64,000 nt of DNA from contig KV748222.1 of NCBI GenBank assembly GCA_001692895.1, positions 960,683 to 1,024,682 on the forward strand. Direction: 5' to 3'. Origin of the DNA: Cenococcum geophilum 1.58. Taxonomy: Eukaryota; Ascomycota; Dothideomycetes; Gloniales; Gloniaceae. The position numbers were made by a program, and so were the translations under genes. Shown in pieces: positions 2,676 to 59,235 of this stretch (positions are counted from its first letter, which is position 1; every line of letters begins with the position of its first letter). The notes under the pieces were generated by a model. The model did not search any database and was not told where the DNA came from. It saw only the letters and a program-made list of their open reading frames with translations.

Positions 2676-3617
2676 TTAAAGTTGCATGACATCGTCTTCC
2701 GCCATCACAATGTCTTTGTGACCAAGCATCTCGACGTCTTGCAGTGGAGTAGCGACAGGTTCGGTTGAAGGAGTACGTGGACGAGATTCGATTCGCTCTC
2801 CCTCAACGACAGGGCCTGGTCGTGCCATAAGATTCTCTACGGTCTTCTGAAGCGACCAACCAACGAGTTGGCACCAACGAAGGCTGTCACCGAAGAGCCA
2901 ATATTTCTCGACGCCATACTGTTTTGCGCGCACTAAGTAGGCCGACAGCGCCTCGCTTTCCAACATGATGAGCGGATCGGTGAGATCAAAGTGATTCTCG
3001 ATCACACGAGCGTAGGCACGTGCGGCGTCGCGAAGCGTAGGATTGGTCATGATGTTCTTCCAGCCAACACCAAGCGACTTGATTAGCACGTCGATAGTGT
3101 TGCCTTTATCGTCGATGATGCTTTCGGTTGGTCGCTGCATTGATAGAGCAGAAACATCGCTCTTCGAGTCGAGGCGTTGTGATTTACGTGACACTGCGAC
3201 GGGTCGGACGGCTGGAGCTTGCTTCTCGGTAGTCTCATGCTTCTCTTCGCACCATGTGCCAGTTTGCGATTCGGCAGAGATGTTTAGACCAGGCTCGTCG
3301 GGATAGATCAAAGTCATACCAGGGCCATAGATGGGTTCAGGTTTGGGCTTGGGAGGCAATTGGCAGACGACCGAGCCATCTGGAGAGTGGTCGTCTGGGT
3401 CGACGTCGGCGATGGATCTTTTACGCCCTGCTGTAGCATTGGAAGCAGCGGCTAGATAGTTGAGCGATGGTGGTGTAGGATATTTTGGTCTGAAGTTGCC
3501 CGCGGCTGGCGGTGGTAATGGCTGGTGATGGGATGGATTGCAGTTGGCGAAATAGTGGGATGGTTGTTGCGGAGGCAGGACGACAGTGGGCGAGGAGGCA
3601 TAGTAGTTGAGACCCAT
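2676..3617 (-). CDS. Conserved fungal protein of unknown function
   Basis: This is a single-exon frame of 313 residues. The N-terminal half is Pro-, Ser- and His-rich and probably disordered. It contains a basic patch (AGRKRSIAD near residue 65), a possible nuclear localisation signal. Residues about 175-265 look like a compact domain: GVGWKNI, then ARAYARVIENHFDLTDPL, then YWLFGDSLRWCQLVGWSLQKT. I associate this type of domain with uncharacterised filamentous-fungal proteins from memory, without a search. The start was chosen as the first ATG after a pyrimidine-rich leader. The gene is divergent from CCT3. No catalytic motif is visible, so no function is assigned. Confidence 0.75.
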   Translation of the reverse strand: MGLNYYASSPTVVLPPQQPSHYFANCNPSHHQPLPPPAAGNFRPKYPTPPSLNYLAAASNATAGRKRSIADVDPDDHSPDGSVVCQLPPKPKPEPIYGPGMTLIYPDEPGLNISAESQTGTWCEEKHETTEKQAPAVRPVAVSRKSQRLDSKSDVSALSMQRPTESIIDDKGNTIDVLIKSLGVGWKNIMTNPTLRDAARAYARVIENHFDLTDPLIMLESEALSAYLVRAKQYGVEKYWLFGDSLRWCQLVGWSLQKTVENLMARPGPVVEGERIESRPRTPSTEPVATPLQDVEMLGHKDIVMAEDDVMQL

Positions 3618-4276
3618 GGTAACTGTATGTTTAGTAGATCAATAAAGGGGAAGTGAGTATGTGGTACGAGTGCCTATACGGCGAATGGGAGACGGGAGTA
3701 TGAGACGGCAATGGGAACGCTGTCAGGGAGACAGGAAGGTTGATGAAGGAGATGGATGAAGGATGGTAGGATGGAGGGATGGAATGGATAACAGGTAGGT
3801 TTATAAAAGGGTGAAAGAGTGGGTGGGTACTGAATTGAAGTAACAAGTTATAGGGGAGAAAGGCTGCGGCAGTGAGCTGAAGTGTGGGAGTGAAATGAAA
3901 GAGAGACGGTTCAGAGGAGCGAGAGGCTGCGGTCTTGTAAGCGGTAGGTCCGAAGATCACGGGCGATGGCTGGAAGCGTAGTCTTGGCGTTGCGGGTAAA
4001 TCGGAATTACACAACCTCCGGGGGTAGCCCGATGGAAGTTAGTGAATACCTAGCTTGATATGGACTAGTGCTAATCTCGCTTAACGGTATGATAAATACG
4101 CATGTCGTGCTCTGTTAAACACATTTCGCTAAAAATTAGGTATCGCGACGAGGGACGCGCTCGGAATTTGATGGAGCAAAGGTCCAACCTCGACAAGGCA
4201 CCAGATTGCCGTATTGCTCCTCAGTAAATAAAACGCACGAGCCCTACTTGGAAGCGCTTTCTTATCTTCAGTCACT
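3618..4276. promoter_or_regulatory. Divergent promoter between the conserved protein and CCT3
   Basis: This 659-bp interval separates two opposite start codons. Read toward the minus-strand gene, roughly 3650-3960 is a long CT-rich tract (repeats such as CATCCATCTCCTTCATC), typical of fungal leaders and core promoters. It happens to leave an open 127-codon frame (3631-4014, minus) that is low-complexity and is not called as a gene. The CCT3 side contains CTTCAGTCACT just before the ATG. Confidence 0.55.
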
Positions 4277-6136
4277 ATGCAAGCTCCAGTGGTGGTGATG
4301 AGTACGCCGGCTCCATCCTTGACGAATAACTGTAGCTAATATAAACCAGATACCCAGACGGGGGAGAGGCAGTTTGGCCGGAAAGCGCAGCTCTCAAATA
4401 TCACAGCGGCGAAGACGTGAGCTTGATATTACCCTCTGTTTACTTGTTCAGAGGCTTATTCGAACCCAGAGTAGCGGACATCATCCGGTCATGTCTAGGG
4501 CCCAAAGCAATGCTGAAGATGTTACTTGACCCTATGGGCGGCATCGTTCTCACCAATGACGGCCATGCTATCCTTCGAGAAATCGAGGTTGCGCATCCAG
4601 CTGCAAAAAGCATGATTGAGCTGAGCCGAACACAAGATGAGGAAGTGGGGGATGGCACAACAACGGTCATAATATTAGGTTTGCAATCCGCAAATTGCAC
4701 ATATAATTTCTTTGGAAACATCCTAATAATAGTTATAGCCGGCGAAATACTAGCTCAGGCTCTCCCTCAACTCGAACGGAATATCCACCCAGTTATCATC
4801 ATTTCCGCCTTCAAACGCGCACTTGCAGACGCTCTCGCCATCATCGACGAAATCTCGGTTCCTGTTGACATTAATAACGATAAAGCAATGTACTCCCTTA
4901 TCTCCGCCTCGATTGGTACAAAATTCGTTTCGCGGTGGTCGGAATTAATGTGCAACCTTGCCCTCAAAGCTGTCCGCACCGTCTCCCTCGACGTTGGTGG
5001 TGGTAAAAAAGAGGTAGATATCAAGCGCTACGCACGTGTGGAGAAGATACCCGGCGGGGAGATTGAGGACAGTGAAGTATTGGACGGTGTTATGTTGAAC
5101 AAGGATATCACACATCCTAAGATGAGGAGGAGGATAGAGAACCCAAGAGTTATGCTTCTGGACTGCCCGCTAGAGTATAAGAAGGGCGAGAGCCAGACAA
5201 ACATCGAAATCAGCAAAGAGGAGGATTGGAATCGGATATTGCAGATCGAAGAGGAGCAGGTTAAGGCTATGTGTGACGCTATCATCGCACTGAAGCCGGA
5301 CCTGGTAATCACCGAGAAGGGCGTCAGTGGTGAGTGACCCCACCTAATATTCACATAGTCTCTTGAGACACCATCTAACACCACCCCTAGATCTCGCCCA
5401 ACACTTCCTCGTCAAAGCAAACATCACCGCCCTCCGCCGCGTCCGCAAAACCGACAACAACCGCATCGCCCGTGCCACCGGCGCCACAATCGTGAACTCT
5501 ATCTTCTCCGCCACAAGCTCCGACATCGGGACGCACTGCGGGCTCTTCGAGATCTCCAAAATCGGCGACGAATACTTTACCTTCCTGACTAAATGCAAGG
5601 ACCCGAAGGCCTGCACGATCCTACTGCGTGGCCCCAGCAAAGACGTCCTCAACGAGATCGAGCGGAACCTGCAGGACGCGATGGGCGTCGCGCGGAACGT
5701 TATCTGGAACCCGCGACTGTGTCCCGGCGGCGGCGCGACTGAGATGGCGGTCGCGGTGGGGCTGGAACGCCGTGCAAAGAGCGTTGAGGGCGTGGCACAG
5801 TGGCCGTACCGTGCTGTGGCGGAGGCGATGGAGGTCATCCCACGCACCCTGATTCAGAACTCCGGAAACAGCCCCATTAGAGTGCTCACACAACTCCGCG
5901 CCAAACATGCCGAGGGTGCCGACGGCAGTGGCAGCTCTTGGGGAATTGATGGCGATAACGGGAAGGTTGTAGATATGAAGGAGTATGGCGTCTGGGAACC
6001 ATTGGCAGTTAAGGCACAGAGCGTCAAGACAGCAGTGGAGAGCGCGTGCTTGTTGTTGAGGGTTGACGATATTGTTGCTGCGAAGGCAGCGAAACAGGCT
6101 TCTGGGCCAATTGGAGGTGGAGGCGGTGAGGAGTGA
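4277..6136 (+). CDS. CCT3: T-complex protein 1 subunit gamma (cytosolic chaperonin CCT3)
   Basis: This is one of eight paralogous subunits of the CCT/TRiC ring, which folds actin, tubulin and other clients in the cytosol using ATP. I model five exons: 4277-4301, 4350-4416, 4470-4678, 4739-5329 and 5391-6136. They give 545 residues, the usual family length. The N-terminus reads MQAPVVVMNTQTGERQ, followed by LSNITAAK and CLGPKAMLKMLLDP. The ATP-site signature GDGTTT follows, then VEKIPGG, LLDCPLEYKKGESQT, VITEKGVSD, GGGATEM and WEP near the C-terminus. The introns are 48, 53, 60 and 61 nt, with branch-like CTAAT/CTAAC before the acceptors. The 60-nt intron (4679-4738) is a multiple of three and has no stop, so its retention would add 20 residues. 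The protein ends in a Gly-rich GGGGGEE tail. Confidence 0.96.
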
Positions 6137-6583
6137 TTACAAAATGTGTATTGAAGGCTGGTTTGTGTCTAGTACAGTTGTCTAGATTTCTACTGGTTGC
6201 GAAAAGTATGTAACAGTAGATCGCGAAATCAATGCATAGAAGATTAAGAATATGTACTAAGTCACATCAGTCGTCCAATCGGGGTGTGGAGAGAATTTGC
6301 TGAATAGTCGCATGAGCCCACGGAATTTATTTATGATGCGGAAGCATCCTCCATGAATGGCGAGATTAACGAAGAGCAGTTTCGCGAATATGAATAGGTT
6401 TGCATCATTCTCATATAATAGGAACCAATGTCTCCTTAAATGTAACTGTTGTGAAAGCCCAAAAGAATCGCAAACGCCTGCCGCTCTCTCCAAGAAATCT
6501 AACCTCCCGATCTGTCAATCTACCATGTGGTATCAACCCCGAAACACTTTCACGCCCCACTCCACTCGAAATGATCTCAGCAA
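6137..6583. other. Tail-to-tail spacer between CCT3 and the DET1-like gene
   Basis: The spacer is 447 bp between two convergent stop codons. It should hold both 3' UTRs. I see no gene or repeat in it; short frames here lack any protein-like features. Confidence 0.5.
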
Positions 6584-8474
6584 TCAATAAATTTCATCAA
6601 ACCCCTTCTTCTCCGCCTCCTTCATCTTCTCAATCTCCGCCTCTCCAGTAATCCTCTCCATTACCTTAATATCGATCTCTTCATCCTCGCATCCTTCCTC
6701 AACCTCCATACACCCCTTCAGTGCCTCCTTCAAAATTGGCGTCCCCCCATCCCCCTCCACCCCCGCATCATCGCTAGTCCCGCCCCCATCACCCAACGCA
6801 TCCGCCCGCGCCCCCAGCCCCATCCCACTCTCAGCAACCCACCCGGCCTCCGACATCTTGCGCGTAGCCGCCTTGCGCTCACGGGACTTCTCGCGCTCGC
6901 GCTCGCGCAGCCGCGACGTCGCGCGCGGCTTCAGCTTGCTGCCGCCGTTGACCGTCCCGGGTGCGCTCTTGCCGGGCGTCATGCTAAGCGTGTGCATGGC
7001 CGGGAAGTAGTCCGAGTCGTCCGAGAGGCCTTCGGCCGGCGTGCCCGTCCCACTCATGCTGCCGCCGAAGTCGCGGCCTGGGTGCAGGTGCCGCATGATG
7101 GATGCGGCGTGCGGGACTGGGTGCTGGTGCGCGCGCGGGATAGACGTGGAGGCTTCTCCGGCTTCGCTGCTGCGGTCGCCCTCGTCCTCGCCTGAGGATG
7201 CGTCGTTGGAGGCGTCGTTCGGTGAGGCGGGAGTGAGCGGCATCTCAGGTATGGGGGTTTTGGGCACGACGCTGGGCTTGCGTGGGGTGGGTTTGGAGGC
7301 GGACTGGCTTGGTTCGGCGATTATGGGTATCTTGTTGGCTTCTTGAGAGGTAACTGGATTGTCATCTTTCTCGTCGTCTGCGGTGGGTGGAGGGAGGCTG
7401 AAGTCGGCGGTGTTTTGGCGGCGGTTACGGCGAGGGAAGGACATTTTGTCGTGATTGCAGCCGTTTACGCAACCACCCCAGCGTTTGACGGGGATGGTTG
7501 GAGAAGAGTGAGGCTGCGGAGGGGGAGGCGGGCCCTTCGTTGTGGTTGACATTGATGTCGTGCTGCCGTTCTGCGAGGCTAGAGCTGAGGCTCGATGTTT
7601 CAACTCGGACCAAGTGCGGAGTTCGTTTTCAAGGATGTATTTGCCATTGGAGGGGCTTTGCTTCATAACAATGAACTCGCAGTGGTGGACGTTACGGAGA
7701 TCTTCGAAATATTCTACGGACCAATGGTACCTGCTCTAGATGTTAGCATACCGCCTGCTCATAGAGCCTGCTTCCCCGACCAGCAATATTCTTTACTTAC
7801 CACTTCATCAGAAACACTCTCGTCATTAATCCATGCGTAACGAGAACGCAGACGCTTGGAAAGTCCTCTTCTCCAAACAGCCGCCACATACTCTCATTAA
7901 ATCCGCTTATTCTATCATACGCATCGGCGGCGCTCTCTCCGCTCGGTATGCGGTAGAAGAAATGTCCATAGTCCGCTCGCTCCTGCCACATTCTCTCCAT
8001 TTCCGCCGAGCATGGCTGGAAATTTCCAAAATCTTGTTCACGCAGGCGGGGCTCCTCGAAGACTTTGACTTTATGGCGGGGAAATGGTGACGGTGTGGGG
8101 TCGTCTGAGGTCAGCGAACGTAGGATGCCTTCGGTGGTTTCACGAGTACGGCGGTAAGGAGACGTGAAGAACTGGAGGGTATCGTCGGGCTTAAGCATAG
8201 AACGGAGGCGGCGTCCTGCTTCTTCTGCCTGTACGGAAGGGACTTAGATATTGCTTTTGGTGGGCTGAACGAGGTAGGACGTGACACATACTTGATTCCA
8301 GCCATCTGGAGTAAGCTTGATTCTGTGGTCTGGTATAAATTGATGGACATCGCGATTTTTATTTCCTTCTGACTGTGCATGTCTAACAAGTATAATCATC
8401 TGCATGCAAGCATTAGCCGCTGCTGGATCAGATAGAAGAAGAGAAACTTGCACGAGGCTTTCCCATTTTGCCAC
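6584..8474 (-). CDS. DET1-like histidine phosphatase (phosphoglycerate mutase fold) with long C-terminal tail
   Basis: I model three exons: 8474-8292, 8228-7801 and 7730-6584. Introns 8229-8291 (63 nt, GTATGT...ACAG) and 7731-7800 (70 nt, GTAAGT...GCAG) join the frames cleanly to 585 residues. The catalytic RHG-type box is ILVRHAQSEGNKN, followed by SPYRRTRETTEG, REQDFGNFQ, FFYRIPSGESAADAYDR and the second catalytic His in VLVTHGLMTRVFLMKW. This set matches yeast Det1 (YDR051C), a phosphatase linked to sterol transport. Residues beyond about 270 form a disordered tail rich in Pro, Ser and acidic residues, with an Arg/Glu helix (SRLREREREKSRERK) and NLS-like stretches, absent in yeast. The start is uncertain. 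A 54-nt in-frame segment (8400-8453) looks like an intron (GTGCAA, CTAAT, GCAG), and its removal would place MIILVRH after seven residues. Confidence 0.88.
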
Positions 8475-15657: not shown

Positions 15658-17349
15658 CTACGCCCACACGCCCAGCGTCCAACTCCCTCTATCCCCAGCC
15701 TTCATCCCCGGCCCCACATTCTGCCTTTGCGGCACAACACTAACCTCTTTCTCCCGGCTCGCACCCTGCAACCCATGCTGAAGGAACTTCTCCCTCTCGA
15801 TCTCCACGATCCCCCGAATCCGCAACTGCGCGACGAGCGAAGCACCAGCCCACGCACCGAGCGACTCAACACCCCGCACAACGCCTCCAACAACAGCAGC
15901 AGACGGCGCAGCCCTAGCGGCCTGGCTCGCCAATTTCAGCGTGATGGGGTCCGGCTCCGGATCCACAAGGCCAGCGGGGACGGACGCGGCAGCAGCGGCG
16001 GACCGGTCGGTCGACTCGGACACCTTGGCGGCGTCCGAGGCGCGGAACTGCTGGCCCTGCTGGCCCTGCCGTAGCGCCTGTTCGTGGCGCTCAGCGGCCG
16101 AGCCGTAGGACTTCACGGCGTCCCACCCGCGCTGCTGGACGAGGGCGGCGAGCTCGGCGAGGAGTCGGGATTTGAGACCTGGCAGGTTGGCCACGCCGCC
16201 TGTGATGATGATACGCGACATGCAGACGCGGCGGACGTCGATGGGGAGGGAGAGGAGGGCGCGGTAAGTGAGGAGGTGTAGGGGTTGGTCGTGGTCGTCT
16301 AGGTCGTGGGGGAGGATGTTGGAGGCGAAGAGGGCGGTTTCGGCGGGGGAGGCGAGGGAGGAGAAGGGGAGTGCGAGGGTCGTTGGGGGGTTGGCTGCCG
16401 GGAATGGGATTGAGATTTCGGGGTCGGAGAGTTCTTTAGAAGCGTCGGCGAATCCGTCGTTGCTGGATGCTCTGGTCGATATGGTGGTCTGGCGGGTGTT
16501 GGCGTGAGGTTCGCACCACCCTACTCGTGTGAGGACTTCTTCGGTTTCTTCGAAGCTGACCTCCTGTTGGGAGGTGGTTGAAGTTTGAGGATTGTTCTTG
16601 GCAAGTTCTGCGTTCAGCATCTTGCTCATCTCCTGGCTCAAAAGCTTTCCTGCCCGTACGCTCCTCCTCTGATGTACCTCGCGATACTCAAATATTCCGG
16701 TGACGATTGTTTCTGCCCACCCAATGTCAACCACCAACGCTGATCGTAGTCCGGCGGCAACGGTCGAAAGAACTGGTGATGAGAGAAGAGTGATGCTAGG
16801 AGCCTGAAAATTGCCGAAGAGTACCGTGAGGACTGTAGAAAGAAGCGGTCGCGGCATGAGAGGTGGTAATGCGAGGAGAACCCGTCGAGGTTTGGGATCC
16901 AGAAGAAAGTACTTGTTACACGCTTCTCGCATTGCTCGTTCGAACTTGTCCTCGACCAAGCCCAAGTCAAGGTCTCGCAGATCCATACGATATAGCTCAT
17001 ACTCTGCTCCCCATTCCTGCCCCCGCTTTCGCTTCCGACGCGTATTTGAGTACTCAGGATCCCATTGTCTGTAGTCTCCCACCCTTCGTTGTTCATTTGG
17101 CCCGAAGCCGAGCATGNATCTTGGAGCGCTCTCACCCGGAAATCCGCCGCGTAGGAATCGTGATCCTAGTTCGAGAACAATATATTCTTCTTCGGAGCGA
17201 AAACTACCTCCCGGAGACCCGTAAATGGACGATGTCGAACGAAGGAGAGGGGTACGAGGGGTTTCTAGTGTAGAAGCCAAATCTTGAAGACGCGCAGGCG
17301 CAGGCCTACTACGGCCTAAAGAGACCTTACGATCGGTTGCTGTTGTCAT
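15658..17349 (-). CDS. Actin-related protein ARP10/ARP11 (dynactin pointed-end; ro-7 type)
   Basis: The frame is a 563-residue single exon. After a Ser/Pro-rich leader the actin fold starts at EEYIVLELGSRFLRGGFPGES (phosphate 1-type loop). Further signatures are QRRVGDYRQW, YELYRMDLRDLDLGLVEDK, PRRVLLALPPLMPRPLLS, SALVVDIGWAETIVTGIFEYREV (phosphate 2-type loop) and CMSRIIITGGVANLPGLKSRL (adenosine loop). This combination matches Neurospora ro-7 and other fungal ARP10/11 proteins. These cap the pointed end of the dynactin Arp1 filament and support dynein-driven nuclear movement. A low-complexity insert (RQGQQGQQFRASDAAK...) precedes the C-terminal part. One base (17117, N) is unresolved and makes one codon ambiguous. 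The gene is divergent from NOP58. Confidence 0.88.
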   Translation of the reverse strand: MTTATDRKVSLGRSRPAPARLQDLASTLETPRTPLLRSTSSIYGSPGGSFRSEEEYIVLELGSRFLRGGFPGESAPRXMLGFGPNEQRRVGDYRQWDPEYSNTRRKRKRGQEWGAEYELYRMDLRDLDLGLVEDKFERAMREACNKYFLLDPKPRRVLLALPPLMPRPLLSTVLTVLFGNFQAPSITLLSSPVLSTVAAGLRSALVVDIGWAETIVTGIFEYREVHQRRSVRAGKLLSQEMSKMLNAELAKNNPQTSTTSQQEVSFEETEEVLTRVGWCEPHANTRQTTISTRASSNDGFADASKELSDPEISIPFPAANPPTTLALPFSSLASPAETALFASNILPHDLDDHDQPLHLLTYRALLSLPIDVRRVCMSRIIITGGVANLPGLKSRLLAELAALVQQRGWDAVKSYGSAAERHEQALRQGQQGQQFRASDAAKVSESTDRSAAAAASVPAGLVDPEPDPITLKLASQAARAAPSAAVVGGVVRGVESLGAWAGASLVAQLRIRGIVEIEREKFLQHGLQGASREKEVSVVPQRQNVGPGMKAGDRGSWTLGVWA

Positions 17350-17709: not shown

Positions 17710-19570
17710 ATGACACTTTTTATCCTCACCGAGACAAGTGCTGGTTATGCGCTTCTTAAAGCTAAAGACAAGAAGCTGCTCAAGCGGGACGACATCGCTA
17801 CTGATATTGAGACTGCAGAGGGTGCGTGCAGCCTGTAAGTAGCTTCCAATGCTCTCGAATTATCTCCTTGAAAATATTCAGGGGCTGTATGCAAGTTCAA
17901 TTGCTTACTAGAATGTTTGGTATAGGTTGAAACTGAAGCAATTCGTCAAATACGAAAATGCAGCCACCGCTCTAAACGAAGCCGCAGCTATTACAGAAGG
18001 AAAAGTCACACCGATGCTATCATCTCTTCTGGATACCCTTAAAGATGAGAAGAAGGTCTCTCTTGCAGTAGCTGACCCGAAATTGGGAAATGCGATCAAT
18101 AAGTTGCCAGGACTATCTCTCTCTCCAGTGTCAGATTCTTCAACAGCAGACCTCTACCGTGGCATTCGAACCCACCTTACCTCTCTCATCCCAGGCCTCC
18201 TTCCATCTGATGTCAACACCATGTCTCTCGGTCTCTCACACTCTCTATCCCGCCACAAGGTAAAATTCTCCCCAGATAAAGTCGACACAATGATCATCCA
18301 CGCCATCGGTTTGCTCGACGACCTTGACAAAGAGCTCAACACCTACGCTATGCGCACTAAGGAATGGTACGGCTGGCACTTCCCGGAGATGGCTAAAATC
18401 ATCAACGACAATCTTGCCTACGCACGCGTCATTCTCGAAATGGGCATGCGCATAAGCGCGCACTCAGCCGACCTCTCCGGAATCCTGCCCGAAGAGATCG
18501 AAACCGCCATCAAAGCCGCCGCCGAGGTATCCATGGGGACCGAAATCACGAGAGAGGACCTCGAAAACATCCGCGCTCTCGCCGAGCAAGTCGTCGACTT
18601 CACACTGTACCGGCAACAGCTATCCTCGTACCTCTCCGCCCGCATGCAGGCCATCGCGCCCAACCTGACCGCACTGGTCGGTGAGCTCGTCGGCGCCCGC
18701 CTAATCGCACACGCCGGCTCGCTCACGAACCTGGCCAAGAGCGCCAGCTCCACGATCCAGATCCTCGGCGCGGAAAAGGCGCTCTTCCGCGCGCTGAAGA
18801 CGAAGCACGACACCCCAAAGTACGGCCTCATCTACCACGCCTCACTGATCGGCCAGGCGACCGGCCGCAACAAGGGCAAGGTCGCGCGCATGCTCGCGAA
18901 CAGAGCCGCGCTCAGTCTGCGCGTCGACTCGCAGGCCGACTGGGGCGCGGGCCGCGAGGGCAGCGGCGACGCCGCTGAGCCCACGGACGAGGAGAGGGCC
19001 GCGTATGGCACGGCGGCGCGGGTCGGGATCGAGCGCAGGCTGCGCGTGCTTGAGGGCAAGCCGCTAAGGGCGATGGGCACGGGGGTGGGGCCCGCGGGGG
19101 CCGGGGCGGGGAAGTGGGAGGTCAAGGAAGCGCGGAAGTACAACCCCGACGCGGACGGGCTGGCGGGCGACGAGCCGGTGGCGGCGAAGAAGGCGGTTGC
19201 GGCGAAGACGAACGGGACCTTGAATGGGGATGTAAGGATGATTGAAGAGGTCGACAGCGAGGACGAGTCCGAGTCCGATGACGATGATGAGGCGGAGGCC
19301 GGCGCGGAGCAGGCGACGCCTAAGGCGGCGAAGAAAGCGGATGGCGAACTCAGCAAGGCGGAGCGCAAGGCGCTGAAGGCGGCGGAGAAGGAGGCTAAGC
19401 GCACGCGGAAGGCGGCGCGGGCTGCGAAGCGGGAGGCCAAGGCTACGAAGAAGGAGGCGAAGAAGCGGAAAGCCAAAGCCGCTTTAGAGCCCGCGGAGGG
19501 GAAGAAGAGGAAGCGGGATGATGAAGGGGAGAAAGGGGAGAAGAAGAAAAAGAAGAAGAGCAAGGATTAG
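17710..19570 (+). CDS. NOP58: Nucleolar protein NOP58 (box C/D snoRNP core)
   Basis: I model two exons: 17710-17834 and 17926-19570. The intron is 91 nt (GTAAGT...TATAG). The product is 589 residues. It starts [20 protein letters not shown], followed by NOP5NT, then the coiled-coil and NOP domain: [65 protein letters not shown] and [20 protein letters not shown]. The last of these contacts the guide RNA and the 15.5K protein. Nop58 pairs with Nop56 and fibrillarin for 2'-O-methylation of rRNA. The C-terminal 150 residues form an acidic patch ([20 protein letters not shown]) and a Lys/Ala/Glu-rich tail ending KKKKKKSKD, the family's nucleolar KKE-type tail. GC content is high in the 3' half. 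Confidence 0.96.
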
Positions 19571-51735: not shown

Positions 51736-51737
51736 TA

Positions 51738-51859
51738 CAGCCTGTACGAGCTCCGGTGTCCCCCCCCCGTGCGCGCGCAACACCACACACCTAATTTCGC
51801 TTCGTCTGCAGCTAAATTAGTATGTAGAGCTAGCAGAAAGTGGTGTAGTACGTGGCCAG
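51738..51859 (+). repeat. Left outer terminal inverted repeat (122 bp)
   Basis: Exact reverse complement of 55037-55158. It contains many CpA dinucleotides (CAACACCACACACC), so it escaped RIP. Confidence 0.93.
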
Positions 51860-51974
51860 TTGAATTCGGAGCTCGGAGCTCAATTTTGAAGCTATTCTAA
51901 ACTTCTATCCCTTACCAAAAGTCGTAATATCTGTTCTAGATCGTGGTGTCGCAAAGCTTCTTTCTCTCATTAAT

Positions 51975-53792
51975 ATGAGCTCCAAACGCCCTGCTCCTGC
52001 CTCTGCAGGTAGTCCCTCTAGTCGCCCACCTACTTAGCAATTTCGATTGTCACCAGTACCGCCTTCCACAGCGATTAGTCGTCCACCTCCTTTTATGCAG
52101 AGCTTAAGTATGAGTACGGTCGTGAATCTTCCACCCGTATATAGTAGCCAACTTAATATGCAGCTTAACTACCCTCTACCGCTAATGTATAGCACCCCGC
52201 ATGCATTATAATAGGCTGCCTATTTTGCTGTAGGCGAGCTTAATAAGATTTTAACTAATCTAGCGGCTGCCAAAGAGCATAATAATAAGGAAGTTTGACA
52301 CTTTTATATACCGCCGGAACAGAATATAGTAAGAGCTCCGCGGTGTACGGGCGTAGCTCCCCCTATATTACAAAGCTAGCCGCCTACTAAGAGGCCTTAG
52401 TTGCTAGAGACTTCGGTATATAAGCCTTTAGTAGAGAGTAAAGAGGAGTTAGCTCTAAGGCTTTAAACAGAGCAAGAGAAATATATAGTAAAGCCTCTAG
52501 GTAAAGGCTTATTCTTTAAGTACCGCCTAGTGTTGTTAGCAAAGCTTTAAAAGATAAGTTGCTTAACTATTATATTGGCTTATATATTTCCTAAGGCTTA
52601 CCTTAGCCTCTTAGCAATATATAATTGTAAAGTTCTTCTTAAAATAAATAAGGCTTTATAGTAAAAGTTTACTGGTTATACTTTCTAAAGGAAGTTGTAT
52701 AATGCTACCGTAAAGCTTACTAGGCGATTAAACTCCACTAGATCTACGTTCTATCTTAACCTAAGCTATATAGTTAATTAGATTAATTCTAAAGAAGAAC
52801 TCTTAAGGGTAGCAAAAGGGTGTTATAATTGCGACGATGGCTTATTTAAGCGGCTTAAAGTTAAACTCGCCATAGATTATATTAAGACGATTAAGTAGTA
52901 AGCAGCTTATACTCCTGTCCGTTCCTCTATAGTAACGTAATTAGCTTTACAGTTAGCTCTAGAATCCTCGCAGAGCTCTTTACTAAGTACACTATAGCCT
53001 ATAGATGGTAATATTACCGCTTCCTCTATAATTCCTAAAATAAGCTTTATAAAGGTATCTTAACGGTAGTAGTGTTGTAAGAACTGCGGTAGTAACTGGT
53101 GCTGGGTATATTAGTAAGTTGATTATAAGCTTATGTAGGAGGACATAAGAGAATAGGGTAGGGCGATCAATTAAGGCCTTACTACTAAATATACTCCTCT
53201 AGTTAGCTTAATATAGAAGCTCCTTAAGAGGAAGACGGGTAATAAGAAGAAGGAGTAGCTTACCTCTAAGGCCTCTACACTAAGTACTCCAGGCGTTATA
53301 AATTAATTCTATATTGACCTAACTAGCAGTTACTATAGGCGCCTATCTATACCTCTAGCGGCCTTGCTCTCTAGCTTAAAGTTATTACTAATTACTTCTT
53401 TACTATGTCCTTAAGGCGTTAATCGGCTTGTAGATTTATGGGAGTATTTTAAGTAGTATAAGAAGGTGGTAGAAGACTTAGAGGCCTAGAAGGAGGATAT
53501 TAACGCTACCTACTAAGTTGCTTTTACTAAGCGGTGGGATTTAAAGATAATTAGAGAGCAAAAGCCGGATAAGCAAGGAAAGATACCTATTGAGGTAATA
53601 ATTAAGGCGGGCGTTCTAGAGGCAATCGCTAAGAGATTGTAAGTAGATATTAAGGAGTGGAGAAGTTTAAGAGGCGTACTTAGTGGTAATCTAGAGAGTC
53701 TCGGGCTTAACTAGTAGTAGATTTTTAACTTAAGTGTGCGCCTGCTTGCAGGCATCTATTATATATACCCTTTAGTAGTAATTCTTATATAA
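51975..53792 (+). pseudogene. Accessory frame of the two-gene Tc1/mariner element, unknown function
   Basis: From MSSKRPAPASAGSPSSRPPT at 51975 to TAA at 53790-53792 is 1818 nt, exactly 606 codons. Checked landmarks stay in phase (start, CCKNCGSNWCW at 53073, end). The N-terminus is Pro- and Ser-rich. The middle has CYNCDDGLFKRLK and later CCKNCGSNWCWVY, a possible zinc-binding site, followed by QEDIREQGRAINQGL. The C-terminus has IPIEVIIKAGVLEAIAKR and DIKEWRSLRGVLSGN. About twenty in-frame TAG/TAA codons interrupt it, most at positions where CAG/CAA is expected, consistent with RIP. I do not recognise the family. It is neither a transposase nor a gag that I know. Its place inside the inverted repeats suggests an accessory or captured gene. 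Confidence 0.65.
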
Positions 53793-53861
53793 ATTAAATA
53801 TTATAATTATAAGGTGTAGCTACGCCTCCCTCTATATAATAATAATACCCTATTATATTAT

Positions 53862-54905
53862 AGAATCTTACTCTCCTCTACTAATATACCCACTATAGCG
53901 GAAATAAGCTCTTGTGCTGTTAGATTTACTTCCTATAATCTCTATATACTAACTTAGAAAGCTATTAAAGCTATTACCCTATTACTCTGGCGCCTCCTTC
54001 TACGTAACAAAGTATTGTTAAATAAACTCCTTTAGCTTACTAAAGAACTCCTTAATTGGATTTAGATCGGGCGAGTATATAGGCAAGTATATAAGCTTTA
54101 CGCCGGCTCGCTTAAAGAGAGAGCTAATATAGGCTAAGTAATGGAAGCTCGCGTTATCTATAACGACTACCGATCTTGGTTCTGGATAAGGATTATAATG
54201 AGGTAGAAGGATATGCTTAATCTAGTAGTCGTAGCCCTCTAAATTTATTAAGCTAGTATATACTAACGATACTAGTACGCCGTTAATAGTATAGGCAGGT
54301 AGTATATTAACTTGCTACTTACTATAATTATATAGTATATATAGAACTGGTATAACTCCCACTAGTAACTAAGACGCCTTTTATATACCTGTCTTTAAGT
54401 TAGCTCCAAATTCGTCTATAAACACTAACTAATTAACGGTAAACTGCGAGATTATGGCCTAGAATAAGGTGCGATCCTCCTGGCTTCACTTAAGGGCGAC
54501 TCGGCGAGCCTTATATATAATTAGCAACTTCCTTATATGCGCCTGTAAAAGCTTCCTTACTAGCTTCTGGCTCTAGCCAGCAACTCTTAGTTCTGCACTA
54601 AGTGTCTGCCTATTTATAACCACCTTAAACCGATTATAGATAAACCACGTTATCTTATTAAGATATAAGTTCGGAGCCTTATTTAGTCGGCAGAGCAATG
54701 CGATAATTATCTCGTTGTTTAGTATGTGTCTCGACTTATATTCGTGACCGAGCCTCGTCTTTTTGTGTAGTCTTATCTTCTTCCGAATACGTTAGATTGC
54801 CTTAGGAGAGCAATCAGCTTGACGAGCACATATAGGCTTACTGGCGCCGGCTGCAAGAAGGATTTCAATAAAGGCGTGCTGCCAGTCACCTATATTTAGA
54901 GCCAT
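53862..54905 (-). pseudogene. Tc1/mariner (DDE_3, DD34E-type) transposase, RIP-damaged
   Basis: The frame is 348 codons, from MALNIGDWQHAFIEILLAAG, with start, middle and stop in phase. It shows a helix-turn-helix (ASKPICARQADCSPKAIQRI, with TAA in place of the Q codon), the first catalytic Asp in VFIDEFGANLKTG, PYPEPRSVVVIDNASFH with the second Asp, and YLPIYSPDLNPIKEFF with the third site. The residue 35 positions after the second Asp, where the family has Glu (PIE), is Lys (AAG), a G-to-A RIP-type change. Several CAG-to-TAG stops are also present. The length (347 residues) is typical of fungal Tc1-like transposases. No active enzyme can be made from this copy. Confidence 0.88.
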
Positions 54906-55036
54906 ATTAAGGAAGGCGACGGGGTAAAACACCGATATCTAGAGGCGATATCACAATTTGGTGAGGGAGAGAAGTTTAGAATAGCTTCAAAATTGAGCTC
55001 CGAGCTCCGAATTCGATGTGGGCCGTGGCTCAAGCC

Positions 55037-55158
55037 CTGGCCACGTACTACACCACTTTCTGCTAGCTCTACATACTAATTTAGCTGCAGACGAAGCGAA
55101 ATTAGGTGTGTGGTGTTGCGCGCGCACGGGGGGGGGACACCGGAGCTCGTACAGGCTG
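55037..55158 (-). repeat. Right outer terminal inverted repeat (122 bp)
   Basis: Exact reverse complement of 51738-51859. It is followed inward by a 22-bp segment (55015-55036) absent from the left arm. Confidence 0.93.
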
Positions 55159-55160
55159 TA

Positions 55161-55449
55161 CAGTGTGGGCTTTGGATGTGGTATATCGGGACGAGGCTCG
55201 GACTTGTTCTGTCAGCTCCGCCAAGACTCCAGGCCGCCCCAGGCGATCTCGATGTTACGGCGGCCCTTCCAGTAGCCCTCCCTTCCGAACCATAAACCCG
55301 TCACTTCTCTCCGTACCAGGCGCCTGCGCCTGTGGGTTGTGTCATCTTTGCACAAGTACAGTATCCTCGACCTCCAAAAGCAAGCCGAGCGCAATGGGCT
55401 GACTGGGGATGCAGGTTTTGGCCGGGTCAGCTCCTCTCAAGATGCCGAC
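55161..55449 (+). promoter_or_regulatory. FHL1 upstream region between the transposon and the first ATG
   Basis: This 289-bp GC-rich interval begins exactly at the transposon's right TA. The FHL1 frame is open back to 55276 without an ATG. A further 5' exon or the normal promoter may therefore have been displaced to the other side of the insertion. Confidence 0.45.
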
Positions 55450-58400
55450 ATGGACGGGTTGAACTTTGCAACACCACAAGATTTTTTCGTGACTGAGTCG
55501 TCCAGCCATGAAGCGACTGCTCCAGCCGCGCCGGTTCTCTCAGTCGCGGAGGGTGCGACCGACGAGCAAAGCGCACCTAGCCCTACCAACAATACCCAAG
55601 CGCCGACGACTACAATGAACCACGACGAAATCAATGCTCATGCATCTGGGATCATTCACTCATTCCCACAATCTGCAGATGACCACGACCACGTGGGTGC
55701 CGGGCATCGAGACCCTGCCGACGCTATGCACCCTTCAGCGACGCTTGACGAGCCAATGCTTCCTCAAGACTTTCCTAGCGATATGGCCGTGTCAGCCAAT
55801 CCGCTCGTTCCAGTACAATCGGCGTTAGACCCCATATCTGCGGATGAGGCTGTGAGAAGATACAATACTATGGAGGCAGAGATGGAGTTGGCAGAAATGG
55901 AGTCTCTCCCGCCACCCGAACAGCGCATTAGTGCATTCGCAAAGCTAAAATTTCTGGATGGAGAATACTACATGACTACCTATCAGGTGGAACTAGGTCG
56001 GGATATAGTGCAGGCTCACGAAGCAATGCGACGCATGATGAAATACCAAAAGGCTTTAAAAAAATCTGGTCAGAATTCAGGCGATGCTTCTCATATGCCA
56101 AGCAGGAAAAGGAAGAGAGCAAGAGGCACTAGTAATACTGCTCGGAGTATTGTCAGCGAAAGCGGAGGGATCGTTAAAGTTCCTGTAGAAGCACTCCCAG
56201 TCGAATACCGCCGGCGGAGGAAGAGCGATGTATCCCAGTCAGCAAGCTCGTCGTCACATCACCATTCCCATGGAAATCCCCTCAGTCAGCAGAATGACGC
56301 GCCAGATAACGGACTACAAGCAGTGATGATGGAGACATTTCCTCCGGTTCCTCAACATCTCGAACACCTAGTGCCAGATCCCAACGACTGTCCATTCGTG
56401 CCTATTCACCCACAGCAGATTACTGCAGTCAGTGGCCACAAGGGCCCAAAGGGTATATCTAGGAAGCATGCGAGAATATCCTACAACTTTGAACTTGGCC
56501 AGTTCGAGTTAACTGTCTTGGGTGCAAACGGTCTCTTCTGCCAAAACATCCACCACAGACCCGGAGACGTCGTTCCTCTTAAGCATAACGATTTCATACT
56601 TATTGGCGCGGTAGAGATATGGTTTCAACTTCCCAACGATCCATTGACCGACGAAGAACCGGCGTCTGAAGATGAGAGCTGTAGCCGCCCAATGAGCTTC
56701 GAATTTCAGAATGGACGAGGAGAAAGCGAGCATATGGAGGACGATAGTGCAGAGGAGCGCCAGAGCTTGGATCCTCGTTATCTTTGGCAAACTAGAAATG
56801 GCTATGAGTCGGATAGGCTTGAGGATGATGATGATGAGGACGGGGATGAAGAAGATGATCGTGATGCCACGCCAGACGATGAGCCCAAAAGGCATACTGT
56901 TCGCTTAAAAATGAGTCTGAAGCATTCACAAACCAAATCTGCCCAAAGAAAGAAGGGTAAGAAAGTCAAGCATCAGAGGCCTCCACCTAAACCAGCACCA
57001 AAAGCACAATCAAAACCCAAGCCAAAGGAGTCCATAAAGGAACTACCTAAAGAAAAGCCAAAGGTTCAACCCAAGGAGCCAGCCAAAGACAAATTAAAGG
57101 AGAAGAACAATGAGCCACCTAAACCACCAGTTAAGGAAGAACAACCAAAGCAGACTGTTGGCGAAGTTAAGGAAAAGCCAAAGGATCAACCAAAGGAGGG
57201 CACTGTTCTGACAGCTGACGATATTGCACGATTTGGATTGCCCGAGAGCATGATTGGTCAAACGGTACAAAAACGCAAAGGTCCAGGTCGACCACCAAAA
57301 GATGGTTTCATGTCTAAACGAGAAAAAGCTCTTCTTGCGAGACAAGCTAAAGAAGCTGAAAAGGCTAGGAAACTCGGATTGGACCCGTCGGAGCTTCCTC
57401 CTCCACCTACGAAAACCAAAACCGGCCGACCTCGGAAAGACTCCAGGGACGAAGGCGACGGCGATGAGCTCAACGTCAAAGATGGTGCCGAAGGCCAAGG
57501 GGGAAATGGCGGCCCATCAAACGTAGATCAAACTGGCGATAAAAAGCCGACGAAGTCTGCCAAACCTCCTCGTTCGCCTTCACCTGAAATGAAAGAGTCG
57601 GATTATACAGAGCAAGAGCTCCAAAGACCGGCTGCAAACTACGTGATCCTCATTCATGAGGCTATATCGAGTTCTAAAACAGGGGCTATGAATCTTCAGC
57701 AGATATACAGCGCTATCGAACGAAAGTATCCCTACTACAAGTTTAGGGTAACCACCAATGGATGGCAAAGCAGTGTCCGTCATAACCTTGGCCAACATGA
57801 AGCCTTCAAGAAGGCCGATAAGGAGGGCAAGGGATATAATTGGGTGATTGATCCAACTGTGTCTATCGAGAAAGAGAGACGTAAACGAGCCAGTCCACCT
57901 CCGCAGCCTCAACCTCAACAGCAACGCTTCTACCACCCACCGGCACAATATCCCATGATGCAGCACCACGGTATGCAAGGCTCGTATTACCCACCTTACC
58001 CTCCGTATCCTCACCCGCCCCAAGCTGCTCCTGCCGATGCTAGCGCAAGAGTCGGAACTCCAGACAACAAGGATGGCTCTACAGGCTCACGACCATTCGT
58101 TCCTCGTTTGCCACCAAGTCTGGCTACGAGCAATGCTCCAGCAAACGTGCCAACAACCCAAAGCGCTTCACCATATGCATCGCCATGGGCGGGAGGGAAT
58201 GATACAAGTCCAAAAGGAGCTGGGAATACGCCCACTACTCAAGCCGGACATGCGTACCCACCCCATCCGCCATATCCTCCAGTTAGCTCTGCGCCACCCG
58301 GATCATATAGCATTCTTGTCACCACATCGGTGCCATATCCATATGTATACACCACCGCAGGCCCCTATCCACCACAATATGCCGGTGCTCCCTTAACACC

Positions 58401-59235
58401 ATCCCAATTCAGTGGCCCATTACGACCCTATTTTCCTTACGTCACTTCTGGAACTTCTCAATCATCTCCCTATGCTCCAAATCCTCAGCTGCAACCCCAA
58501 AACCAGTCCCAACCACAAGCTCCATCACAACCTCGCTACCCGCCCCACATTACTGCTGCCATGGCTGAACAACTGGACGCCTTCCGCAATACCTTCATCG
58601 CAAGATCTACCGAAGACAAAGCATTTGCTGAGCGCAAGGTAGACAACGCAATCAAGCATATCGTCTCACCGTCAGACCCGCCTGCTGCTCTTATTGCCGC
58701 CGAACAGGAGCTCGTCAATATCATCAAAAAGATTCTGGGGGATGATGTAGAGAGACGCGCATCACAAAATGAAACCGAAAAGCAAGGGCAAGAACAACAG
58801 CAAGACCCGCCCGCTGGCCGTACCTTATCGGAACTAGCTACGAGTGCCGCTACAATTGCTGCATCATCGGCTGCGGCTGCGGCTGCGGGTTCTAAGTCTA
58901 CCGAAGTAGCGCCGCCTTCTGCTGAGCCAGCATCAAAGTTAGCTTCACATCCATCAAAATCCGAAACACCAGCTCAGCCCCCTAGCATTCTGCAACCTCA
59001 TCCTGCTTCTGCACAGGCAAAGGTGCAAAGACCAAGCGTTGAGCCACTTACGCCGGTTCCTGGGAGTCCAATGGTTGCGCCAAACGCCCAGACTAATGGC
59101 GTGACTACGCCAACGCCCGGTGCAAAACGTACTTATGGGGAGATGATGAAAGCCTCTACAGACATCTCTGAACAGCTAGCCGAGGTTGAGCGAATTGTTG
59201 ATAGTATAAGAGATGCGAAGAAAAGGGCGCTATGA
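55450..59235 (+). CDS. FHL1: Forkhead transcription factor FHL1 (FHA plus forkhead)
   Basis: The product is 1261 residues in one exon. The FHA domain is split: FAKLKFLDGEYYMTTYQVELGRD (about 160-185) is separated by about 150 residues, including a nuclear signal SRKRKRARG, from KGISRKHARISYNF to LIGAVEIWFQLP (about 330-395). An acidic stretch (EDDDDEDGDEEDD) and a Lys/Pro-rich region follow. Two AT-hooks are visible: KRKGPGRPPKDG (about 607) and KTGRPRKD (about 656). The forkhead domain (about 725-800) includes NYVILIHEAI, YPYYKFRVTTNGWQSSVRHNL and KGKGYNWVID. The tail is Pro/Gln/Ala-rich and ends in a short helix (SEQLAEVERIVDSIRDAKKRAL). In yeast Fhl1 binds ribosomal-protein gene promoters and recruits Ifh1 through FHA. 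The start is the first in-frame ATG; longer fungal N-termini are possible. Confidence 0.92.
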   Translation: MDGLNFATPQDFFVTESSSHEATAPAAPVLSVAEGATDEQSAPSPTNNTQAPTTTMNHDEINAHASGIIHSFPQSADDHDHVGAGHRDPADAMHPSATLDEPMLPQDFPSDMAVSANPLVPVQSALDPISADEAVRRYNTMEAEMELAEMESLPPPEQRISAFAKLKFLDGEYYMTTYQVELGRDIVQAHEAMRRMMKYQKALKKSGQNSGDASHMPSRKRKRARGTSNTARSIVSESGGIVKVPVEALPVEYRRRRKSDVSQSASSSSHHHSHGNPLSQQNDAPDNGLQAVMMETFPPVPQHLEHLVPDPNDCPFVPIHPQQITAVSGHKGPKGISRKHARISYNFELGQFELTVLGANGLFCQNIHHRPGDVVPLKHNDFILIGAVEIWFQLPNDPLTDEEPASEDESCSRPMSFEFQNGRGESEHMEDDSAEERQSLDPRYLWQTRNGYESDRLEDDDDEDGDEEDDRDATPDDEPKRHTVRLKMSLKHSQTKSAQRKKGKKVKHQRPPPKPAPKAQSKPKPKESIKELPKEKPKVQPKEPAKDKLKEKNNEPPKPPVKEEQPKQTVGEVKEKPKDQPKEGTVLTADDIARFGLPESMIGQTVQKRKGPGRPPKDGFMSKREKALLARQAKEAEKARKLGLDPSELPPPPTKTKTGRPRKDSRDEGDGDELNVKDGAEGQGGNGGPSNVDQTGDKKPTKSAKPPRSPSPEMKESDYTEQELQRPAANYVILIHEAISSSKTGAMNLQQIYSAIERKYPYYKFRVTTNGWQSSVRHNLGQHEAFKKADKEGKGYNWVIDPTVSIEKERRKRASPPPQPQPQQQRFYHPPAQYPMMQHHGMQGSYYPPYPPYPHPPQAAPADASARVGTPDNKDGSTGSRPFVPRLPPSLATSNAPANVPTTQSASPYASPWAGGNDTSPKGAGNTPTTQAGHAYPPHPPYPPVSSAPPGSYSILVTTSVPYPYVYTTAGPYPPQYAGAPLTPSQFSGPLRPYFPYVTSGTSQSSPYAPNPQLQPQNQSQPQAPSQPRYPPHITAAMAEQLDAFRNTFIARSTEDKAFAERKVDNAIKHIVSPSDPPAALIAAEQELVNIIKKILGDDVERRASQNETEKQGQEQQQDPPAGRTLSELATSAATIAASSAAAAAAGSKSTEVAPPSAEPASKLASHPSKSETPAQPPSILQPHPASAQAKVQRPSVEPLTPVPGSPMVAPNAQTNGVTTPTPGAKRTYGEMMKASTDISEQLAEVERIVDSIRDAKKRAL

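Follow-up and report, generated by a model that had tools for sequence, protein, structure and literature searches.

A candidate two-gene lineage of Tc1/mariner transposons in Cenococcum geophilum

The Tc1/mariner transposase is a textbook enzyme that needs no helper. Among fungal elements with a single gene, those of Verticillium are about 2 kb long and hold one intronless gene between terminal inverted repeats (TIRs) of 41 to 102 bp (PMC3441728), and those of Paracoccidioides reach 2.3 kb (PMC2836289). Cochliobolus copies range from 1.3 to 3.9 kb, and the potentially active ones have a single ORF (PMC4112212). Multi-gene Tc1/mariner elements are already known from ciliates, and a composite one from Fusarium (PMC7325037, PMC3212892). 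The ciliate elements Anchois, Sardine, Thon, TBE and Tec associate a Tc1/mariner transposase with further genes, several of which have no assigned function (PMC7325037). MarCry-1_FO of Fusarium oxysporum is of the Mariner type, with TA duplications, TIRs of 16 bp and, as second component, a Crypton tyrosine recombinase (CryptonF, GCR1_C; PMC3212892). TremE of Paracoccidioides is a Tc1/mariner element of 1883 bp with ORFs of 335 and 217 codons, the second ORF resembling a hypothetical protein (PMC2836289). PIF/Harbinger elements, which have a transposase of another family, also carry two separate genes, ORF1 and TPase; transposition requires ORF1, which in the zebrafish element binds the TIRs and without which the TPase does not localise to the nucleus (PMC2836001).

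The element described here lies in a 64,000-nucleotide stretch of C. geophilum DNA (the window). It shares with the single-gene elements of the fungal IS630-Tc1-mariner group a DDE-type transposase, TIRs, TA duplication and MITE-like derivatives, but differs from them in its second, convergent gene, in a short transposase intron, and in the size of the elements, 3.4 to 3.7 kb; the window copy, with 3425 bp and two genes, falls outside their typical single-gene format of about 1.3 to 2.3 kb. By their descriptions, Anchois is set apart by TIRs of about 22 nt and three ORFs, TBE by three ORFs of which one encodes a zinc finger protein, and Tec, Sardine and Thon by the recombinase that they carry. 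The GCR1_C domain of MarCry-1_FO was not found here, and TremE, again by description, stays within the usual size of elements with a single transposase. PIF/Harbinger elements differ by their 3-bp target duplication and PIF-type transposase, where the present element has a TA duplication and a DDE_3 domain, and no Myb-like domain was found in the accessory protein. A literature search recognised no fungal Tc1/mariner family with the same second gene. Our main reading, to which we give a probability of roughly 0.6, is that the window holds a decayed copy of an old two-gene Tc1/mariner lineage, in which an accessory protein would aid the transposase.

Bounds and gene content of the element

The decayed copy extends from 51736 to 55160. 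Its arms, 51736-51859 and 55037-55160, are perfect inverted repeats of 124 nt, 100% complementary with the flanking TA counted in, and a looser match spans 51736-51949 and 54929-55160. An earlier note on this DNA had reported perfect inverted repeats with TA flanks, and these are real; its arms of 122 bp, starting at 51738, are the same arms minus the TA. It had also described a minus-strand transposase converging with a plus-strand frame, in agreement with homology that ends at about 53816 and at 53711, respectively. The 605 codons given to the plus-strand frame were slightly too many, since the homology begins with the start codon at 51975 and runs on to 53711, a length of 579 codons. The features are as follows.

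51736..51737, no strand: presumed left TA target-site duplication, based on the empty sites of three sister copies
51736..51949, plus strand: left TIR, first 124 nt perfect, beginning TA-CAG and stopping 25 nt short of the accessory start codon
51975..53711, plus strand: accessory gene, 579 codons, interrupted in frame by 32 stops; no relative found in Pfam or PDB
53712..53815, no strand: short gap separating the convergent 3' ends
53816..54905, minus strand: transposase gene, 19 in-frame stops, ATG at 54905, C-terminal limit approximate
54006..54431, minus strand: catalytic domain of the DDE_3 type, spanning read-through residues 159-300
54510..54560, minus strand: probable spliceosomal intron of 51 nt (GTAAG ... 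GCTAAT ... AAG), position kept in three subfamilies
54929..55160, minus strand: right TIR, last 124 nt perfect, terminating CTG-TA, 23 nt short of the transposase start codon
55159..55160, no strand: presumed right TA target-site duplication, based on the empty sites of three sister copies

The transposase is of the DDE_3 type, with matches to Pfam PF13358 for the window copy (E = 2.1e-19) and for another copy, L030 (E = 3.1e-29). Over 35 copies compared with the DD34E/D catalytic triad of the superfamily, the first two columns hold D in 31 and 32 copies. The third column, with 34 residues between, holds K in all 35, and the adjacent next residue is E in 31; RIP decay or a shifted triad would each fit this K. 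A Pfam search for an N-terminal HTH gave zero matches across nine read-through transposases or N-terminal pieces.

In many copies the reading frame changes near residue 121 of the transposase, and ribosomal frameshifting is known from some IS630 elements. Programmed frameshifting was nevertheless rejected here: the change sits on a GTAAG...AG stretch of 49 to 55 nt, whose length modulo 3 fitted the frame change in 31 of 37 comparisons. Seven of 44 comparisons had been left out as they did not show the search pattern (L027, L030, L031, L050, L061, L063 and L065). The six misfits, on our reading, consisted of a wrongly chosen 3' site giving a length of 61 (L024, L029, and L026 twice), a duplicate L033 segment, and the damaged L023. 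The best explanation of the frame change is a small intron.

Recurrence of the two-gene layout and empty sites

The survey covered one genome of 177 Mb, and the counts that follow are drawn from the matches listed. The convergent accessory and transposase layout is common to three diverged subfamilies, A, B and C. Among 101 transposase rows, 93 were at least 39% identical to the transposase of the window, and 87 of these had a convergent accessory match on the opposite strand, beyond the transposase 3' end. This match lay within 1.2 kb in 67 cases and at 1.2 to 40 kb in the other 20, some of which are possibly unrelated neighbours. An accessory match accompanied none of the eight rows with 37% identity or less. 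Six of the 93 rows had no detectable accessory neighbour among the matches listed; one of them, C63, has only four stops, and the accessory gene is absent from the 1151 bp read on its 3' side. When 47 two-gene loci were fetched, one inverted pair enclosed both matches at 27 of them, and TACAG/CTRTA stood at both ends of 17. Recurrence of both frames, enclosed by related ends, at many loci of a 177-Mb genome places the layout well beyond chance.

The earlier note had asked for several copies holding both frames with TA flanks, and such copies were found, the layout recurring in three subfamilies. Copies with these ends and the transposase alone, which it had named as counter-evidence, were not found among the best 40 of 194 candidate ends. 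In the stretches fetched for L023 and L026 a transposase stands without an accessory gene, accessory matches lying 5.3 and 8.3 kb off. Short copies with family A ends, of about 440 to 620 bp, contain no complete gene; of the transposase, no more than the first 48 codons remain.

The flanks of the window copy itself are unique in the genome, and the evidence for TA duplication comes from three sister copies, L009, L010 and L011. For each of these, the joined flanks match contiguous genomic DNA with a single TA and unchanged length (156 nt, 89% for L009; 160 nt, best 99% for L010; 166 nt, 91% for L011). In these three copies, the whole two-gene unit was inserted at TA in one piece; segmental duplication of one locus is excluded for them by their unlike flanks and by the empty sites.

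Decay, selection and co-inheritance

Both frames of the window are now closed by RIP-type stops, 32 in the accessory gene and 19 in the transposase gene. All accessory matches listed (best 75 of 131 and best 74 of 128 candidates) carry stops, and none is intact. Opposite 28 of the 32 accessory stops, one or more of 20 further copies have CAA, CAG, CGA or TGG. Recoding of TAA and TAG as glutamine, an idea raised by columns that are stops in many copies, was rejected, since in each of the three codon phases CpA is scarce compared with TpA, and CAA or CAG is present at the same columns.

Selection was measured with transversions only, since RIP makes none. The transversion-only N/S ratio of the accessory frame was 0.535 (A-A), 0.594 (A-B) and 0.532 (C-C), against 0.88 to 1.58 in the other two frames; for transposase exon 2 it was 0.35 to 0.42. 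The contrast between frames was weak for one pair, the window copy and L030 (0.67 in frame compared to 0.80 and 0.92 elsewhere). The low in-frame ratio shows purifying selection on the accessory frame.

Subfamilies A, B and C form distinct groups in each of the two gene trees (16 loci), with a distance correlation of 0.975 that was matched by none of 2000 permutations; within A and within C, the branching disagrees between the accessory and transposase trees. The two genes have been inherited together, and purifying selection has acted on both across at least three subfamilies. Conservation in three subfamilies, purifying selection and agreement of the trees together make an integral gene more likely than recent cargo, and we favour the view that the accessory gene is an old, selected component of the transposon, and neither recent cargo nor a nested insert. 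Of the two roles proposed in the earlier note, assistance in transposition or captured cargo, these data speak against the second; the first is suggested by analogy. Such long co-retention suggests that the second protein belonged to how the elements moved or survived.

The TIR of families A and B ends no more than 25 nt from each start codon, or runs slightly past it, in all nine cases measured. In the same families, the 60 nt upstream of the accessory and transposase genes look similar by eye.

Possible roles of the accessory protein

The accessory protein of the window matched nothing in Pfam or PDB, and no relatives were found in two non-eukaryote collections, viral_contigs and genome_contigs. 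Two structure predictions of the accessory protein from single sequences gave mean pLDDT values of 41.4 and 52.6, too poor for a fold search. Because the protein has no recognisable domain and fold prediction failed, a helper role is put forward by analogy, and our preferred guess is that the protein helps transposition much as ORF1 of PIF/Harbinger does. Each gene would have its promoter and 5' leader within one of the TIRs, and the near-identity of the TIRs may cause both genes to be driven together; the accessory protein could then aid the transposase in end binding, complex assembly or nuclear entry.

An integral second gene might instead have the host as its target, by countering silencing or in some other way, outside the transposition reaction. 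This is the strongest of the alternatives, though we consider it rather unlikely. The accessory protein evolves faster than the transposase (mean A-C identity of 27%, compared to 51% for transposase exon 2; transversion ratio within A of 0.53 compared to 0.37), an arms-race pattern, and the elements are heavily RIP-marked. However, the stops in all accessory matches listed indicate that any protection eventually failed, and the Pfam search gave no domain with a known function of this kind.

A second gene captured from the host and carried along as cargo is improbable. Extra genes do occur in fungal DNA transposons, TET/JBP dioxygenases for instance being reported in diverse groups (PMC12730594), but here place and orientation are constant through three subfamilies, with purifying selection, and no stop-free host relative was present among the matches listed (best 75 of 131 and best 74 of 128). 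Even less probable is an accessory recombinase that shares or takes over mobility, as in Tec and MarCry-1_FO, where the partner of the Tc1/mariner transposase is a recombinase of the site-specific or tyrosine type (PMC7325037, PMC3212892, PMC3464196). No recombinase domain was found in a Pfam scan of 21 accessory copies, the best match to any family having an E value of 0.013, and insertion at TA with TIRs fits a DDE enzyme. A by-eye resemblance of the C terminus to GCR1_C was unsupported, as a hand check placed none of the GCR1_C matches listed on an accessory row. Finally, the plus-strand frame is full of stops, with no intact copy among the matches listed, but it is hardly conceivable as a non-gene, nested insertion or assembly artefact, given that the stops are RIP-type, the frame is under coding constraint, the layout is repeated at many loci, and the unit as a whole was inserted in one event, as seen from three empty sites.

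Returning to the two-gene lineage with a helper protein, we propose, tentatively and at somewhat less than even odds, that it represents an unrecognised fungal two-component Tc1/mariner system, in which transposition would depend on a second protein of new fold, encoded head-on from near-identical TIR promoters. Together with PIF/Harbinger and the ciliate elements, it would then make three independent origins of cut-and-paste transposition by two proteins.

A second gene kept through deep divergence would offer a natural experiment on the circumstances and reasons that bring a one-protein transposase to need a partner, and the accessory protein would add a family that has no Pfam match. RIP conceals such genes from annotation, and similar second genes may go overlooked in other fungi.

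Structure and decay of the window copy

The earlier note described perfect inverted repeats enclosing a minus-strand transposase and a separate plus-strand frame, and this layout was recovered in the window:

51736-55160: whole element, bounded by 124-nt perfect inverted repeats
ATG at 54905, minus strand: Tc1/mariner-type transposase (Pfam DDE_3, E 2.1e-19)
51975-53711, plus strand: accessory frame, without a relative in Pfam and PDB searches

The element starts with TACAG and ends with CTGTA; a looser TIR match spans 214 nt on the left and 232 nt on the right, leaving 25 nt to the accessory start codon and 23 nt to that of the transposase. Both frames are broken, with 19 in-frame stops in the transposase and 32 in the accessory, and the element bears marks of RIP (TpA/ApT 1.77; (CpA+TpG)/(ApC+GpT) 0.63; CpA 0.47 of expectation). 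For 28 of the 32 accessory stops, one or more of 20 aligned copies have CAA, CAG, CGA or TGG in the same column; for 25 of the 28, such a source codon is present already among the eight other copies of family A, to which the window copy belongs. Four stops have no such source in the 20 copies. Between the window copy and L009, a family A locus, the accessory frame shows 162 transitions and 1 transversion, an excess such as RIP would leave. Genome searches with the window and family C accessory proteins gave no stop-free accessory row (one match) among the matches listed, so that no host gene ancestral to the accessory is visible there. In some DDE_3 (PF13358) matches, C11:2267286-2267711 and C5:4224280-4224726 among them, the domain is free of stops, and RIP has thus not wrecked every Tc1/mariner relative in the genome.

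A conserved transposase stretch of 49-55 nt, GTAAG...CTNAY...AG, is read as a putative intron; its length modulo 3 fits the frame change in 31 of 37 comparisons, seven more being missed by the pattern. The third catalytic residue column holds lysine (AAG or AAA) in 35 of 35 copies from all subfamilies, followed by glutamate in 31 of 35; this may reflect either RIP decay to saturation or a triad that has shifted.

The flanks of the window copy are unique in the genome. An open frame of 1298 codons (55339-59235, plus strand), which carries Forkhead and FHA domains, starts 179 bp from its right end, which places the element at the edge of an AT-rich island, adjoining a transcription-factor-like gene. 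The island covers about 24-50 kb of the window (GC 0.30-0.39), and its four 300-nt direct repeats (24168-44508; starts 24168, 30896, 37482 and 44209; spacings 6728, 6586 and 6727) probably belong to a tandem of two decayed LTR retrotransposons related to each other. Upstream of the island lie two ordinary eukaryotic genes, open frames with an Actin domain (15658-17349, minus strand) and a Nop (snoRNA-binding) domain (17927-19570, plus strand).

Family composition and linkage of the two genes

The genome searched comprises 177 Mb in 162 contigs; its RIP marks, its short introns and the genes next to the element would fit a filamentous ascomycete. Match counts are lower bounds: at least 86 accessory rows with the window protein as query (75 of 131 candidates scored), at least 75 with the family C protein (74 of 128 scored), and at least 114 transposase rows (112 of 430 scored). 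Three subfamilies were distinguished among the fetched loci (L numbers):

Family A: window copy, L009, L010, L011, L024, L027, L029, L030, L032
Family B: L035, L036, L037 and others
Family C: L046-L049, L051, L052, L055, L060 and others; also the second element of L040

Both genes were compared at 16 loci: identity averaged 42% (A-B) and 27% (A-C) for the accessory, and 62% and 51% for transposase exon 2. At L040, a family B element (637-4232) adjoins a family C element (4230-7707) with one TA common to both, as if one had inserted in the target-site TA of the other; in the left flank of L052, what appears by eye to be a family A TIR end is followed directly, at locus position 391, by an inserted family C element.

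Linkage was counted on 101 transposase rows, after 11 N-terminal-only and two C-terminal-only rows had been dropped from the 114; the partner sought was an accessory row past the transposase 3' end and on the other strand. Rows are not elements, certain elements yielding two rows. The accessory rows used were 83 of 86 (window-protein search) and 56 of 75 (family C search), so that the pair number can only be underestimated. For the 93 transposase rows with at least 39% identity, an accessory was found within 1.2 kb in 67, at 1.2-40 kb in 20 and nowhere in six; nested insertions likely account for the larger distances, and some of these partners may be chance neighbours. None of the eight rows with 37% identity or less had a partner. 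This sharp boundary links the accessory gene to a single transposase clade. Copies with only the transposase between these ends, which the earlier note named as a sign of a later nested insertion or unrelated host sequence, were not found among the places read (40 of 194 candidate ends scored). Of the 93 clade rows, 87 have a partner, and six do not. One of the six, C38:1245-2144, sits near a contig start; another, C63:666477-667115 (plus strand, L069), carries just four stops, and no accessory was found in the 1151 bp read, starting 135 bp past its 3' end.

Selection, co-inheritance and joint movement

RIP produces transitions only, and transversions were therefore counted. The accessory nonsynonymous/synonymous transversion ratio, relative to expectation, was 0.535 within A, 0.594 for A-B and 0.532 within C (pairs of related copies not being independent), compared to 0.88 to 1.58 for the two other frames of the region; transposase exon 2 gave 0.35-0.42.

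Transversion ratios for single pairs of copies (accessory frame; two other frames)
Window copy-L027: 0.49; 1.02, 1.26
L051-L046: 0.53; 1.08, 1.39
L027-L030: 0.58; 1.08, 1.15
Window copy-L030 (weak pair): 0.67; 0.80, 0.92

This substitution pattern marks the second frame as a former gene. At the 16 loci, the accessory and transposase identity matrices correlate at 0.975, a value reached in 0 of 2000 permutations; both trees set A, B and C apart, but they differ in the branching within A and within C.

The count of copies holding both frames, called for in the earlier note, bears out a two-gene unit: in 27 of the 47 two-gene loci fetched, an accessory match and a transposase match lie between the arms of a single inverted pair of 80 nt or more. 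In 17 of the 27, one end reads TACAG and the other CTGTA or CTATA. Sixteen of the 17 measure 3.4-3.7 kb, and L030 6980 bp; for the other 20 loci, no such pair of ends could be made out in the stretch fetched. The joined flanks of seven copies (one in part) were searched against the genome, and three gave empty sites with a single TA, contiguous across the junction: L010 (at numerous sites, the best match 99% over 160 nt), L011 (C3:1052599-1052764, 91% over 166 nt) and L009 (C38:847981-848136, 89% over 156 nt). For the other four, no empty site was among the matches listed, which says little, as 40 of 388 candidates were scored, mostly L010 rows. The two genes have therefore been selected, inherited together and moved together.

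Short derivatives with family A ends (L012-L016, L021) retain no more than the first 48 codons of the transposase and are about 440-620 bp long, as measured in L012, L013, L016 and L021; products of full copies probably acted on them in trans.

Possible role of the accessory protein

The TIR of families A and B reaches to within 25 nt of both start codons, or slightly beyond, in nine of nine measured copies, and in these families the 60-nt stretches preceding the two genes of one element resemble each other by eye. The two genes may therefore be expressed jointly, from promoters and leaders that are nearly identical. In family C (four of four copies), the TIR measures 115-135 nt and the start codons lie another 100-136 nt inward.

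The accessory protein has a pI of 9.8-10.4 in the five of 21 copies computed, a basicity on paper that is exaggerated because RIP turns glutamate into lysine codons. In the same five copies, P, Q, S and T make up 0.28-0.40 of the first 140 residues. A partly conserved C-x3-C-x4,5-C motif was seen by eye around residues 367-376. Pfam gave no match for the window copy and a best E of 0.013 over 21 copies, a profile search against PDB gave a single hit (E 0.4), and structure predictions were of too poor quality for use.

Extra genes in Tc1/mariner elements are already on record, in ciliates (PMC3464196, PMC7325037) and in the Fusarium composite MarCry-1_FO (PMC3212892). TremE of Paracoccidioides also has a second ORF, in a 1.9-kb element (PMC2836289). 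In Cochliobolus, Tc1-Mariner copies are up to 3.9 kb long, but those that are potentially active have one ORF (PMC4112212). No description of a fungal Tc1/mariner element with the present gene pair was recognised in the literature searched.

The main rival reading is that the accessory was directed at the host, for example in counter-silencing; in its favour, the accessory protein evolves faster than the transposase. By analogy, a partner of the transposase is the most likely role. The closest functional model is ORF1 of PIF/Harbinger, which is required for transposition and, in a zebrafish element, binds the TIRs and is needed for transposase localisation (PMC2836001); the accessory would likewise act beside the transposase. 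The best-supported reading is that the accessory protein of this two-gene transposon served the element's own spread.
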